From: Agromyces sp. G08B096
GTDB taxonomy: Bacteria > Actinomycetota > Actinomycetes > Actinomycetales > Microbacteriaceae
Direction of reading: 5' to 3'
DNA length: 64,000 nucleotides
Assembly (NCBI RefSeq): GCF_040267705.1
Contig: NZ_CP158374.1
Coordinates: 1,674,001-1,738,000, forward strand
In this document: positions 47,252-63,500 of the stretch, piece after piece
Numbering within the stretch: the stretch's first letter is position 1
Layout of the letters: each line of letters opens with the position of its first letter
Notes under the pieces: generated by a model
Database searches by the model: none
Seen by the model: the letters and a program-made list of their open reading frames with translations, nothing else
What the model was told of the DNA's origin: nothing
Program-made: the position numbers and the translations under genes

Positions 47252-48163
47252 ATGACCCCCTCGCCGTACGCCGCCGCGCTCGCGCGCATCCCCGTGCGCG
47301 AGCACCGGACCGAGGTGCTCGGCGCCGAGACGGCCTGGTGGGAGTACGGAGAGCCGGGCGACCCGGTGCTCGTGCTCGTGCACGGATTCCGCGGCGACCA
47401 TCACGGCTTGGAGCCGGTGATCGCGCACCTGCCGGGGCTGCGCATCATCTCGCCGGATCTGCCCGGATTCGGGGCATCCGCACCGCTCGCGGGCCGCGCG
47501 CACGACATCGACGGCTACGCCGCCTGGCTCCGGGCGTTCCTCGTCGAGACCGTGCCGGCCGGTGCCTACACGCTCCTCGGGCACTCGTTCGGATCGATCG
47601 TCGCTTCGGCGGCCGTGGCCGGCGGCCTCCGTCCCGACCGGCTCGTCCTCGTGAATCCGATCGGCGCGCCCGCCCTCGAGGGCCCGCGCGGCGTCATGAC
47701 CCGGCTCGCCGTGCTGTACTACCGGCTGGGCGCCCTGCTGCCGCCGCGTCTCGGCTTCTGGCTCCTGCGGAACCGGCTGATCGTGCGGGTCATGAGCGTG
47801 ACGATGGCGAAGACGAAGGACCCCGAGCTCCGCCGGTTCATCCACGACCAGCACGACCGCTACTTCTCGGCCTTCGCCGACCGCGACATGCTGCTCGAGG
47901 CGTTCCGCGCATCCGTGAGCCACGACGTGCGCGAGTTCGCCGGGAACATCCCGGTGCCGACGCTCCTCGTCGCCGCCGATCGCGACGACATCACCCCGAT
48001 CGAGGCGGAGCGCGAGCTCGTGACGCGCTTCCCCGACGGGCGCCTCGCCGAGATCGAGGGAGTCGGCCACCTCATCCACTACGAGACGCCCGAGCAGGCC
48101 GCCGGGCACATCCGCGCATTCCTCGGCGCGGTCGCCTCCGACGCCCCGGAGGCGACGGCGTGA
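47252..48163 (+). CDS. Alpha/beta hydrolase
   Basis: The 303-residue protein has the alpha/beta hydrolase fold: oxyanion-hole HGFRGDHHGLE, nucleophile GHSFGS, Asp in VAADRDDITP and His in GVGHLIHYE. A lid of Arg/Leu-rich helices lies between strands 6 and 7. No signal peptide. The substrate is unknown. The stop overlaps the glycosyltransferase GTG (GTGA), so the two form an operon. Confidence 0.88.
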   Translation: MTPSPYAAALARIPVREHRTEVLGAETAWWEYGEPGDPVLVLVHGFRGDHHGLEPVIAHLPGLRIISPDLPGFGASAPLAGRAHDIDGYAAWLRAFLVETVPAGAYTLLGHSFGSIVASAAVAGGLRPDRLVLVNPIGAPALEGPRGVMTRLAVLYYRLGALLPPRLGFWLLRNRLIVRVMSVTMAKTKDPELRRFIHDQHDRYFSAFADRDMLLEAFRASVSHDVREFAGNIPVPTLLVAADRDDITPIEAERELVTRFPDGRLAEIEGVGHLIHYETPEQAAGHIRAFLGAVASDAPEATA

Positions 48164-49257
48164 GGCTCGTCGTCGACTGCCGGTACACCCGCATCGGCCA
48201 GCACGACGGCATCAGCCGATTCACCGCGGGGATCGTCGGCGAACTCGCGAAGCGGCAGCCGCTCACCATGCTCATCAGCGATCGACGCCAGCTCGAGCTG
48301 CTGCCCGACCTGCCCTGGCAGCTCGTCACCGGGCCGACGAGCCCGCGCGAGCCCTTCGTCGCGCGACAAGTGCGGAAACTCCGGCCCGACGTGGTGTTCT
48401 CGCCGATGCAGACGATGGGCTCCTGGGGACGCGACTACGCGCTCCTGCTGACCCTGCACGACCTCATCTACTACGAGAATCGGACCCCGCCGCGCGACCT
48501 GCCGGCGCCCGTACGGCTGCTCTGGCGGCTCTACCACCTCGCTTGGTGGCCGCAGCGCGTGCTGCTGAACCGCGCCGACGCGGTGGTGACGGTGTCGGAG
48601 ACGACCGCCGGGCTCATCCGAGAGCACCGGCTGACGTCGCGTCCGGTCGAGGTCGTCCCGAACGCGGCCGACGACCTGCCCGTGCCGCCGCTGCCGCGGG
48701 CGCGGCCGTCCCGGAACTCGCTGGTCTATATGGGCTCGTACATGCCCTACAAGAACGTCGACACGCTCGTGCGCGCGGCCGCGCTGCTGCCCGACCACGA
48801 GCTGCACCTGCTGAGCCGGATCAGCCGCGACGAGCGGGCGCGGCTCACGCGACTCGCCCCCGACGCGCGCCTGACGTTCCACGACGGCGTGACCGACGCG
48901 GAGTACGCCGACCTCCTCGCCGGCGCGACGGCGCTTGTGCACGCGAGCCGCGCCGAGGGGTTCGGCATCCCGCTCGTGGAGGCGATGCGGGTGGGCACCC
49001 CGGTCGTGGTGAGCGACATCCCGATCTTCCGTGAGATCGGCGGCGACGCCGCGCTCTACTTCGATGCCGACGACCCGCGCGCCCTCGTCGCGGCGCTCGG
49101 CCGGCTCGAGCAGGACGGCGAGTGGGAGCGCCGGTCGGATGCCTCGCTGACGCAGGCGTCGCGGTTCACGTGGGCGTCCTCCGCCGAGCGTCTGCTCGAG
49201 CTGTTGCGTCGCACCGGCGCAGAGCGGGACACGCGTCGGGGACGACGGCGGCGCTGA
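48160..49257 (+). CDS. GT4 family glycosyltransferase
   Basis: The 365-residue GT-B protein has VDCRYTRIGQHDGISRFTAGI at the acceptor side, VVTVSETTAGLI and VVPNAADD. The donor site carries MGSYMPYKNVDTLVRAA and the E-X7-E box SRAEGFGIPLVEAM. It resembles mannosyl/rhamnosyl transferases of cell-envelope glycans; sugar and acceptor are unknown. GTG 48160 overlaps the hydrolase stop. The C-terminus is Arg-rich. Confidence 0.88.
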   Translation: MRLVVDCRYTRIGQHDGISRFTAGIVGELAKRQPLTMLISDRRQLELLPDLPWQLVTGPTSPREPFVARQVRKLRPDVVFSPMQTMGSWGRDYALLLTLHDLIYYENRTPPRDLPAPVRLLWRLYHLAWWPQRVLLNRADAVVTVSETTAGLIREHRLTSRPVEVVPNAADDLPVPPLPRARPSRNSLVYMGSYMPYKNVDTLVRAAALLPDHELHLLSRISRDERARLTRLAPDARLTFHDGVTDAEYADLLAGATALVHASRAEGFGIPLVEAMRVGTPVVVSDIPIFREIGGDAALYFDADDPRALVAALGRLEQDGEWERRSDASLTQASRFTWASSAERLLELLRRTGAERDTRRGRRRR

Positions 49258-49290
49258 GGCGCCGACGGCGCGGCACCGGGACCGTGCCGA

Positions 49291-49909
49291 TCAGTCCGTG
49301 GTGCCGGTGAGCGCCTCGGGCTCCGCGAGCTCGAGCGCGCCGGCGTTCGCGCGCAGGAGCAGGATCGACCCGTTCACGATCGCGAATCCCGGGCCGGGCA
49401 ACGTCCAGCCGCTCAGGTGCAGGACGAGCGCATGGATGACGCCGCCGTGCGTGACGGCGACGATGTTCCCGCCGGGGTGGCGCTCGGCGAGTTCGAGCAG
49501 CGCCTCCGACGCGCGCTCGGTCACCGACGAGCGCGGCTCCAGCCCCTCGATCGTCGCGGCCTGGGCCTCGACGGCGGCCCGGCCGGCGTGATCGAGCCCC
49601 TCGAGCACGCCGTGGGCGCGCTCGGCGAGGGCTGGCACCAGCTCCGGCTCGGGGAGGCCGAGCGCTCGGGCGATGATCTCCGCCGTCTCCGCGGCGCGCG
49701 ACAGCGGACTCGCGTACACCGCCTGCCACGGCTCGCCGGACTCCGCGAGGCGCTCGGCGACGCCGACCGATTGCGCCCGGCCGGTGTCGTTCAGCGGGAT
49801 GTCTGTCGGTGCGTCCCTGGATGCGGCGCTGCCGGTTCCACTCGGTCTCGCCGTGGCGCACGAGGGCGATCGTCGTCGGGCGGATCGGGAACGCCGTGGT
49901 GTCGGTCAT
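49291..49909 (-). pseudogene. Histidine phosphatase family protein, disrupted by a +4 frameshift
   Basis: The N-terminal frame (from ATG 49909) carries LVRHGETEWNRQ, the phosphohistidine RHG motif, then QGRTD, and goes out of frame. The C-terminal frame carries ASPLSRAAETAEII, a Glu acid and AVTHGGVIHAL (second His), and ends at 49291. Between them GACA is duplicated in tandem (GACAGACA on the minus strand, 49807-49800). Removing one copy would restore the family sequence RTD-IPLNDTGRAQ and a 204-residue protein. It is broken as it stands; phase variation or a sequencing error are alternatives. Confidence 0.88.
49800..49807. repeat. 4-bp tandem duplication causing the frameshift
   Basis: TGTCTGTC on the plus strand (GACAGACA on the coding strand) is a two-copy tetranucleotide repeat at the exact point where the phosphatase reading frame changes. 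Confidence 0.85.
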
Positions 49910-49955: not shown

Positions 49956-50798
49956 TCAGGCGCCCAGCGCCTCGGCCATCGCCGTGAGGGTCTGCGTCGT
50001 GCCGGCGTCGATCTTCACGGCGGCGCGGGTGTCGCCCCTCGTGAGGCCGCGGTTCACGACGATGATCGGCGCGCGCCGGCGCCGGGCGATCTCGAGCAGC
50101 CGCATGCCCGAGTTCACCACGAGCGAGGAGCCCGCGACGAGCAGCACGTCCGCGCCGCCCACGATCGAGGCGGCGGACTGGAACGTCGCACCGGGAACGA
50201 ACTCGCCGAAGAACACCACGTCGGGCTTCAGGATGCCTCCGCACACCGTGCACTCGGGGATCACCATCGCATCGACGTCGTCGACCTCGACGTCGCCGTC
50301 GGGCGCCGGGCGGATCGCCTGGTCGAGGTCGATGTCGGGGTTCAGGGTGGCCAGGCGGTCGGCGATCGACTGACGCGCGAAGAACTGCCCGCAGGTCAGG
50401 CAGACGACCCGGTCCATGGTGCCGTGCAGCTCGACCACGTGCGCGCTGCCTGCGCGCCGGTGCAGCCCGTCGACGTTCTGCGTGACGACGCCGGCGACGG
50501 CGCCGGCGGACTCCAGCCGGGCGAGCGCTCGGTGACCGTCGTTCGGCCGGGCGCTGCCGAAGCTCCGCCAGCCGAGGTGGCTCCCGGCCCAGTACCGCTT
50601 GCGGGCGCGCTCGGAGCCCAGGAAGGTCTGGAACGTCATCGGGGTGCGCTGCGGGGCACCCTCGCCGCGGTAGTCGGGGATTCCGGAATCCGTGCTGACG
50701 CCCGCTCCGGTGAGGACCGCGACCCGGGCGCCGCGCATGAGGTCGACGGCCGCCCGCACGTGCTCGCTCGACACGGCCTCCGCCAAGCTGTTCGTCAC
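49956..50798 (-). CDS. Sir2 family NAD-dependent protein deacylase
   Basis: Sirtuins remove acyl groups from lysines using NAD. The 280 residues have GAGVSTDSGIPDYRG (31-45), TQNVDGLH (106-113), catalytic His H125 in ELHGTMD, and the zinc pairs C133-C136 and C183-C186. This is a full class with zinc. GTG 50798 is chosen since GGAGG lies 5 nt upstream. The divergent 89-nt region has a perfect palindrome at 50828-50845. Confidence 0.93.
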   Translation of the reverse strand: MTNSLAEAVSSEHVRAAVDLMRGARVAVLTGAGVSTDSGIPDYRGEGAPQRTPMTFQTFLGSERARKRYWAGSHLGWRSFGSARPNDGHRALARLESAGAVAGVVTQNVDGLHRRAGSAHVVELHGTMDRVVCLTCGQFFARQSIADRLATLNPDIDLDQAIRPAPDGDVEVDDVDAMVIPECTVCGGILKPDVVFFGEFVPGATFQSAASIVGGADVLLVAGSSLVVNSGMRLLEIARRRRAPIIVVNRGLTRGDTRAAVKIDAGTTQTLTAMAEALGA

Positions 50799-50827
50799 GC
50801 CCGCCTCCGATCGACGATTCCCTGAGT

Positions 50828-50845
50828 GTAAACGTCGCGGTTTAC
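50828..50845. promoter_or_regulatory. Palindrome GTAAAC-N6-GTTTAC between sir2 and the RNA methylase
   Basis: The perfect 6-bp arms (50828-50833, 50840-50845) overlap a TACACT -10 box for the Sir2 gene (50830-50825, minus strand). The shape resembles TetR-family operators, but no regulator gene is adjacent. Confidence 0.6.
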
Positions 50846-50887
50846 CGGAATGTTTCGTCGGACTGGCAGGGTGGAGGAGGAGGACAC

Positions 50888-51694
50888 ATGCGGATCGAAC
50901 GGGTCGCGGACGCGGCATCCGATGCGGTGGCCGATTACGCGGCGCTCACCGACGTGGCGCTGCGCACGGCGACCGAGGCCGAACGCGGCCTCTACATCGC
51001 CGAGTCGGCGAAGGTGATCACGCGCGCGATCGCGGCCGGCCACCGACCGAGGTCGGTGCTGCTCGAGGAGAAGTGGCTGCCCGGGCTGGTCCCGGTGCTC
51101 GAACCGTTCGACATCCCCGTGCACCTCGCCGACGCCCGGCAGCTGGAAGCCACCACCGGGTACCGCGTGCACCGAGGGGCCCTCGCAGCGTTCGAGCGGC
51201 CGCAGCTGCCCGACGTCGGCGCGCTCCTCGCCGAGGCACGCCGGGTCGTCGTGCTCGAGGACATCGTCGACCACACCAACGTCGGCGCGATCTTCCGGAG
51301 CGTCGCCGCGCTCGGCGCCGACGCGGTGCTTGTGACGCCGCGGTGCGCCGACCCGCTGTACCGCCGGAGCGTCCGGGTCAGCATGGGCACCGTCTTCCAG
51401 GTGCCGTGGACCCGCGTCGGCGAGTGGGCAGACACGGCGACCCGCTTGACCGAGCGCGGCTTCACGACGGCGGCCCTCGCCCTCGCCGACGACGCGGTAC
51501 CGCTGCGGACGCTCGCCGCGGATCCGCCCGAGCGCCTCGCGCTCGTGTTCGGCGCCGAGGGCGACGGGCTCAGCCGGCAGGCGCTCCGCGCTGCGGATCT
51601 CGTCGTCACCATCCCGATGGCCCACGGCGTCGACTCCCTGAATGTGGCCGCGGCGGCCGCCGTGGTGCTCTACGCGCTCGGCGAGCCCGTCTAG
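50888..51694 (+). CDS. TrmH/SpoU-family RNA 2'-O-methyltransferase
   Basis: The 268-residue SPOUT protein has an N-terminal L30e-like substrate-binding domain (1-105). The knotted catalytic domain follows, with motif 1 LEDIVDHTNVGAIFRSVAALG, motif 2 ALVFGAEGDGLS and motif 3 IPMAHGVDSLNVAAAAAV. Members methylate ribose in tRNA or 23S rRNA; the target is not readable. Upstream GGAGGAGGA is an RBS. The TAG stop starts the -10 box of the next gene. Confidence 0.91.
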   Translation: MRIERVADAASDAVADYAALTDVALRTATEAERGLYIAESAKVITRAIAAGHRPRSVLLEEKWLPGLVPVLEPFDIPVHLADARQLEATTGYRVHRGALAAFERPQLPDVGALLAEARRVVVLEDIVDHTNVGAIFRSVAALGADAVLVTPRCADPLYRRSVRVSMGTVFQVPWTRVGEWADTATRLTERGFTTAALALADDAVPLRTLAADPPERLALVFGAEGDGLSRQALRAADLVVTIPMAHGVDSLNVAAAAAVVLYALGEPV

Positions 51695-60562: not shown

Positions 60563-63500
60563 ACGGAAGTCCCGCGACCGGTGCGGCGCCGACACGGTGA
60601 GCGACTCGAACCGATCGGCGACGACGTTCACGACGCCGTCGCGACTGCGTTCGAGGATGCCCCGCACGATCATCGCGGGCGCCTCCCGGGCGATGCGGCG
60701 GTAGCGGTTCCACACCCCGACCCCGGCGATCACATTCACCGTGCCCGACTCGTCCTCGATGTTCAGGAACGTGATGCCCGAAGCCGTGGCCGGCCGCTGC
60801 CGGTGGGTCACCACCCCGCCCACCTCGATGCGGCGACCCGACTCGGCGTGGCGCAGCAGGTCGACCCGGATCACGCCGCGCTCGTCGAGCCGGTCGCGGA
60901 TGTGCCGGATCGGATGATCGTCGGGGGAGATGCCGGTCGCCCACAGGTCGTAGACGACCTGCTCGGTCGGCGTCAGCATCGGCAGCAACGGCGGCTGCAC
61001 GGCCACGACCGAGCCGGGCAGGTACTCCGCACGATCCTGCGCGGCCTCGCCGGCGAGCCACAGCGCCCGCCTCCGGTCGAGGCCGAACGACGCGAACGCC
61101 CCCGCGGCCGCGAGCGCCTCGAGCTCGGCCGCGTCGAGGCCGACCCGGCGCGAGACATCCGGCATGTCCCGGAACGGGCCGCCGCGCTCGCGCTCGGCGA
61201 CGAGGCGCTCGGCGAGCGCGGTGCCGATCGAGGAGACGTCGGCGAGGCCGAGCCGCACGGCGAAGGCGGCGTCGCGGCGATGCTCGGCCGACCGGTCGGG
61301 CGCGTCGCGGTCGAAGTCGCCGACGGGTGGCTGCACCGGATCGGCGCAGCCGGGCAGGCCGCTCGGACCCTCGGGAGGCATCGATCCGCGTCCGCGGGAG
61401 GCATCCATCTCTGCCTCGGCGACCGGCTCGAGGCCCGCGTGCACGCCGGAGCGCTGGATGTCGGGGCGACGGACCTCCACACCGTGCCGCCTGGCGTCGG
61501 CGGTGAGCGTCTGCGGCGAGTAGAACCCCATCGGCTGAGCGCGGAGCAGCGCCGCGAGGAACGCGGCCGGATAGTGCAGCTTCAGCCACGAGCTGGCGTA
61601 GACGAGCAGCGCGAAGCTCAGCGCATGGCTCTCGGCGAAGCCGAAGTTCGCGAACGCCTGGATCTTGGCGTAGATCTCGTCCGCCGTCTGCGGGTCGATG
61701 CCGTTGCCCGCCATCCCGGCATACAGTCGCTCCTTCAGCGTCTCGATGCGCTCGACCCCCCGCTTGGAGCCCATCGCGCGGCGCAGCAGATCCGCGTCGG
61801 CCGGTGTGCAGTCGCCCACGGCGACCGCCATCTGCATGAGCTGCTCCTGGAACAGGGGGACGCCGAGCGTGCGCTCGAGCACCGGCACGAGCTTCGGATG
61901 CAGGTAGGACACGGGCTCCTCGCCGGTGCGCCGGCGGATGTAGGGATGCACCGCGCCGCCCTGCACCGGCCCAGGACGGATCAACGCGATCTCGACCACG
62001 AGGTCGTAGAACCGGCGCGGCTTCAACCGCGGCAGCGTGCCCATCTGCGCCCGCGACTCGACCTGGAACACGCCGATCGAATCGGCCCGGCAGAGCATGT
62101 CGTAGACCGCGGCTTCCTCCTTCGGCAGGTTCGCGAGCTCCCAGTCCTCGCCGGTCGTCTCGCGGATGAGGTCGAAGGTGTACTGCAGGGCGGCGAGCAT
62201 GCCGAGCCCGAGCAGGTCGAACTTCACCAGCCCCATCCAGGCGCAGTCGTCCTTGTCCCATTGCAGGACGGTCCGGTGCTCCATGCGCGCATGTTCGATG
62301 GGCACCACCTCGCCCACCGGGCGGTCGGTCAGCACCATGCCGCCCGAGTGGATGCCGAGGTGGCGCGGGAAGGTGAGCACCTGCTCGGCGAGCTCGACGA
62401 CGGGCGCGGGGATGTCGTGGTCGTCGGTCTCGACCACCGCCCCCCAGCGTTCGACCTGACGCGACCAGGCATCCTGCTGACCCGCGGAGTAGCCGAGCGC
62501 CTTCGCCATGTCGCGCACCGCGGCCTTCGGCCGGTAGCTGATGACGTTCGCGACCTGCGCGGCATTCTGGCGGCCGTACTTGGCGTAGACGTACTGGATG
62601 ATCTCCTCGCGGCGGTCGGAATCGAAGTCGACGTCGATGTCGGGCTCCTCGTCGCGGAGGGCCGACAGGAACCGTTCGAACGGCAGCCGGTAGAAGATCG
62701 AGTCGACCGCGGTGATGCGCAGCACGTAGCAGACCGCCGAGTTCGCGGCCGAGCCCCGACCCTGGCAGAGGATGCCTCGCCGCCTGGCCTCGTGCACGAG
62801 GTCGTGGACGATGAGGAAATAGCCGGGGAAGTCCTTCTGCTCGATGACGTCGAGCTCCTGCTGGAGGCGCTCCCTGACGTGATCGGGCACGCCGGGGTAG
62901 AGCTCGTCGGCGCCCCGCCAGACGAGCTCGCGCAGCCAGCTCATGGGCGTGTGCCCCTCGGGCACCTGCTGCCTGGGCAGCTTCGGCCTCGCGCTGCGCA
63001 GCCGGAACCCGAGGTCGGCCGCGAGGTCGACCGTGCGCGACACGGCGCCGGGGTAGCGGGCGAAGCGGGCCGCCATCTCGGCGCCCGAGCGCAGGTGGAG
63101 CCCGTCGGAGGCGGGCAGCCAGCCGTCGAGCTCGTCGAGGCTGCGGCGGGCGCGCACCGCGGCGAGCGCCTGCGCGAGCCGGTGCTCGGGCGGCGTCGCG
63201 TAGTGCACGGCGTTCGTCGCGATGACGGGCAGCCCCGCGCGGGCGGCGAGGTCGGCGAGGAGGTCGTTGGCCGGCTGATCGCCGGGGTGGCCGTGGTCGA
63301 ACAGCTCGACGGCCACCTGCTCGGGGCCGAACACGGCGGTCAGGCGGTCGAGCTCACGCCTGGCGCCGTCGGCGCCCTCCGCGGCGAGCGCCCGGCGCAC
63401 CGCGCCCTTCCGGCAGCCGGTCGGCACGAGCCAGTGCCCGCCAGCCCGTTCGGCGAGCTCCTCGAGGTCGTACACCGGGCGCCCTTTCTCGCCGCCCGCG

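Follow-up and report, generated by a model that had tools for sequence, protein, structure and literature searches.

Very probably, a dispensable branch-1 histidine phosphatase gene of Agromyces sp. G08B096 was recently inactivated by a four-base tandem duplication, most likely through replication slippage, and the species nearest to this strain lack the gene altogether. The gene lies on the minus strand at 49909-49291 of the window (the whole analysed stretch of DNA, 64,000 nucleotides), and the two halves of the phosphatase are encoded in different frames (Table 1). Translation from ATG 49909, whose context CAGGGTGATCGGATG resembles by eye the usual ribosome site, gives the 35 residues MTDTTAFPIRPTTIALVRHGETEWNRQRRIQGRTD, after which the likeness to the family ends. 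The second frame is shifted by one base relative to the first and encodes, from 49803 onwards, a stretch of 170 residues (DIPLNDTG...LTGTTD) with no further stop before its end at 49291. According to the ORF list, the frame starting at the ATG now runs on to 49166 and overlaps the convergent glycosyltransferase gene.

Both pieces were recognized separately by the Pfam profile PF00300, of 194 positions, and each on its own exceeds the curated cut-off of 21.7 bits. The N-terminal piece covers profile positions 1-22 (E 2.6e-7, 30.9 bits) and the C-terminal piece positions 22-187 (E 2.4e-33, 115.9 bits). Since these matches abut end to end, the arrangement looks like one gene split without loss of sequence, which confirms the description in the first-pass annotation of a phosphoglycerate-mutase-like protein with its halves in two frames. 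The RHG motif, which carries the phosphate-accepting histidine, is located in the N-terminal piece and the THGG motif in the C-terminal piece, and thus the two are not found in the single frame that is demanded of a branch-1 member.

Table 1. Features of the split histidine phosphatase gene and its conserved neighbours (window coordinates).
Feature	Position	Strand	Remarks
5′ part of histidine phosphatase gene	49805..49909	(-)	ATG 49909, RHG motif, original frame, 35 codons; PF00300 positions 1-22
GACAGACA, two-copy tetranucleotide	49800..49807	(-)	Net +4 bases vs relatives; frame-change site
3′ part of histidine phosphatase gene, other frame	49291..49803	(-)	170 codons + stop TGA at 49291-49293; PF00300 positions 22-187
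247-aa frame now expected from ATG	49166..49909	(-)	Unrelated to family past residue 35; ORF list
Sirtuin (NAD-dependent deacetylase), conserved upstream neighbour	49956..50918	(-)	PF02146 / NF003738
Glycosyltransferase-like gene, conserved convergent neighbour	48160..49257	(+)	Named by eye from sequence

The switch between the frames falls exactly on a tandem GACA, as the first-pass annotation had claimed for 49807-49800. The forward strand reads TGTCTGTC here, corresponding to GACAGACA on the coding strand, and there is no second occurrence of this sequence on either strand of the 64-kb window. In an alignment with 11 of the 26 orthologues described below, the window copy has a net gain of four bases at the site; the gap introduced by MAFFT sits a few bases upstream of the repeat, its exact placement being arbitrary. 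Two-copy tetranucleotides are common, with 282 in the window and 5 within the phosphatase gene, so the GACA repeat alone says little. However, a random four-base insertion yields an exact tandem copy in just 3.3% of cases (100,000 simulations), which makes the coincidence of the repeat and the frame change meaningful. Judged from the frames, one unit gained or lost would switch between them, as reversible phase variation through the GACA repeat would entail. Such variation is extremely improbable with just two copies of a kind of repeat this common, and because none of the 11 aligned relatives carries the repeat at the site, no stable phase switch is indicated, in agreement with the earlier opinion that two copies are too few for one. 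For the same two reasons the gene was rejected as a candidate phase-variable gene.

For comparison we used 59 other genomes of the genus (G001-G059), thereby extending across Agromyces the comparison with relatives that had been suggested earlier. An orthologue adjoining the same sirtuin gene on the same strand, with TrmH beyond it, is present in 26 of them. In none of these does a frame change occur: a single intact frame passes through the site, with RHG[E/Q]T in frame and a remainder of 166-179 residues up to the stop, which indicates that the state found in the window is derived. The same observation bears on the idea that ribosomes shift by +1 close to the site, for instance at the CCC codon just downstream, and so still produce some full-length protein. 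The two frames are indeed one base apart and overlap at the junction, but each of the orthologues is encoded in a single frame without any need for a shift, so that there is no conserved shift site and this explanation is very improbable. A programmed frameshift gene, which requires a frame change common to relatives, was likewise rejected, with no such change in any of the 26 orthologues.

An assembly or sequencing error, with the living strain carrying an intact gene, would agree with a single difference in an otherwise little decayed gene, but we consider it unlikely. The source genome is a single contig of 3,593,141 bases and 100% complete, and a tandem copy of four bases is not the kind of change that homopolymer errors produce. 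Frames were compared with about 80 kb each from G001, G047 and G036, which covered the syntenic parts of the window, and this gave 33 candidate frame changes, five of which are coding-like in both pieces. The four coding-like candidates other than the phosphatase, near 16.1, 27.4, 25.9 and 35.9 kb, fall on separate intact frames according to the ORF lists (by eye), and most of the remaining candidates have the composition of antisense or spacer frames. Only the phosphatase is thus left unexplained by intact frames among the five, which argues against a poor assembly. In addition, with the gene missing from the three nearest species, its inactivation here is unsurprising.

Apart from the frame change, the gene shows little decay, which favours a recent event. 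The GC3 value of the C-terminal part (0.953) is the third highest among 27 congeneric values, and this part is unchanged at all 28 columns that are invariant in the other 26 congeners. Set against the 20 closer orthologues, the window copy differs at 4 of the 55 columns that are otherwise invariant, the joint second highest value of 21 rows. The same test gave 5 of 56 for G019 and 4 of 55 for G044, which puts the window value high but inside the range. The end branch of the window copy measures 0.32 on the phosphatase tree vs 0.13-0.14 on the neighbour-gene trees. Similar ratios were found for G036 (0.46 vs 0.21-0.22) and G009 (0.21 vs 0.10), and lower ones for G053 (0.20 vs 0.12-0.16) and G046 (0.04 vs 0.05-0.07). 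On these measures the break is probably young, and some relaxation may have taken place before or after it. The gene has the properties of a recent pseudogene, namely a frame disrupted where all orthologues are intact and little further decay. The first-pass proposal of recent slippage is thereby supported, as the four extra bases repeat the adjacent ones, little decay is seen elsewhere in the gene and the orthologues are uniformly in one frame.

The surroundings of the gene are conserved among the congeners that carry it. On the side away from the sirtuin, 25 of the 26 carriers have the convergent glycosyltransferase gene; the stretch examined for the remaining one, G057, did not contain it. 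The spacer between the sirtuin and glycosyltransferase genes measures 698 bases in the window and 634-753 bases in the 25 congeners for which it could be measured. In 30 of the 59 genomes the phosphatase is cleanly absent, the ends of the two flanking genes lying 4-128 bases apart. G017 has a spacer of 1,708 bases and the C-terminal part finds no match anywhere in its genome; at this locus (L128) the sirtuin is much more diverged, with 56% identity. The contig of G011 ends beside the sirtuin gene, so this genome was not judged at the site, and G021, with distant sirtuin matches only, was not placed as present or absent. At a threshold of 1e-3 no protein-level remnant of the phosphatase was detected in any of the 32 loci that lack the gene. 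At the DNA level these loci gave 68 weak matches; among the 12 of the 68 that were listed, most are scattered, and a 36-base match overlapping the G025 spacer may be a remnant or due to chance. Outside the genus, the phosphatase also lies beside the sirtuin gene in two Amnibacterium records (L039 and L040) and one further actinomycete (L041). This shared arrangement suggests that presence is ancestral, and the gene-bearing state is probably the older one.

Some irregularities were noted in the neighbouring genes themselves. The sirtuin at G026:C1:2108285-2109242 (L127) matches with residues 1-255 in one frame and residues 253-318 in another, perhaps due to a frameshift there. The alpha/beta hydrolase of G030 (L125, 6100-6953) is found as two overlapping pieces in different frames and that of G056 as one piece, which points to a possible frameshift in G030. 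In the window, ARAGORN reported a tRNA-Val(gac) at 61075-61171 which, with 97 bases, is long for a tRNA-Val; the call may be false, or the extra length may reflect an unusual variable arm or an insert resembling an intron.

On a tree of sirtuin, TrmH and alpha/beta hydrolase sequences the species of the window is sister to G001 plus G047, followed by G042 and then G036. SH-aLRT values for the three nested groups were 94, 96 and 97 in one run and 87, 86 and 97 in the other, both from short searches without bootstrap. The three nearest species on this neighbour-gene tree, G001, G047 and G042, lack the phosphatase and the next one out, G036, has it intact. If the gene was never regained, 18 losses are needed on one tree besides the frameshift in the window. 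This count treats G017 and also G011, which belongs to a clade lacking the gene, as losses and leaves out G021, and the figure hangs on weakly supported branches as well as on the assumption of no regain. A tree of the phosphatase, built from the 170-residue part only and with several long branches, recovered several of the same species groups and did not place the window copy. AU tests did not reject a grouping of the window copy with G036 (p 0.21) or with G046 and five of its kin (p 0.25), and marginally rejected one with G036, G033, G034 and G043 (p 0.040). We assume that the window copy was inherited vertically rather than re-acquired sideways.

We propose that replication slippage, to which the duplicate alone points, would have duplicated GACA to give GACAGACA and thereby shifted the frame 35 codons into the phosphatase gene. 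The N-terminal piece would retain the RHG motif without the rest of the fold, and translation restarting at GTG 49719, further downstream, would give a product without the RHG motif, so that an active enzyme is not expected in either case and we infer that activity has been lost. Judged from its distribution, the phosphatase seems to be dispensable in the genus and to have been lost many times. The same genome also encodes other family members with open frames (for example G000:C1:2762775-2763164, 41% identity, 208-aa frame), and with such relatives present the broken copy may be dispensable. The frameshift in the window would then represent the first step of loss and the clean absence in the sister species its completed stage.

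Taken alone, the gene is one more young pseudogene, a case of ordinary biology in a neat evolutionary setting. What the setting offers is one gene that is intact, newly broken or cleanly missing at one conserved site within one genus, which makes the order and speed with which a non-essential enzyme is lost easy to study. The patchy distribution could also help to find out what the phosphatase does. A bolder reading, which we regard as unlikely, is that the site next to the sirtuin gene is a hot spot of repeated and perhaps selected loss, with about 18 independent clean losses and the window caught in the middle of such an event. If so, this would suggest that the enzyme is not simply neutral but at times does harm, or is of use in certain habitats only.

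The window gene resembles members of branch 1 of the histidine phosphatase superfamily (PF00300) in that both pieces match the profile and both motifs are present, and differs from them by being split over two frames. Neither piece scores above the cut-off of any NCBIfam model; the best model for the C-terminal part is TIGR03162 (CobC, alpha-ribazole phosphatase) with 69.5 vs a cut-off of 162.9 bits, a score that is lowered by its status as a fragment. A search of solved structures with the C-terminal part returned nothing at 1e-6. Literature searches for frameshifted pseudogenes in Agromyces and for histidine phosphatases in Microbacteriaceae found nothing. Young bacterial pseudogenes made by short tandem duplications are a known kind, and the phosphatase gene agrees with these in having a single small indel and a little decayed remainder. 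No difference in kind was seen; what is added here is that the sister species have completed the loss at this very site.
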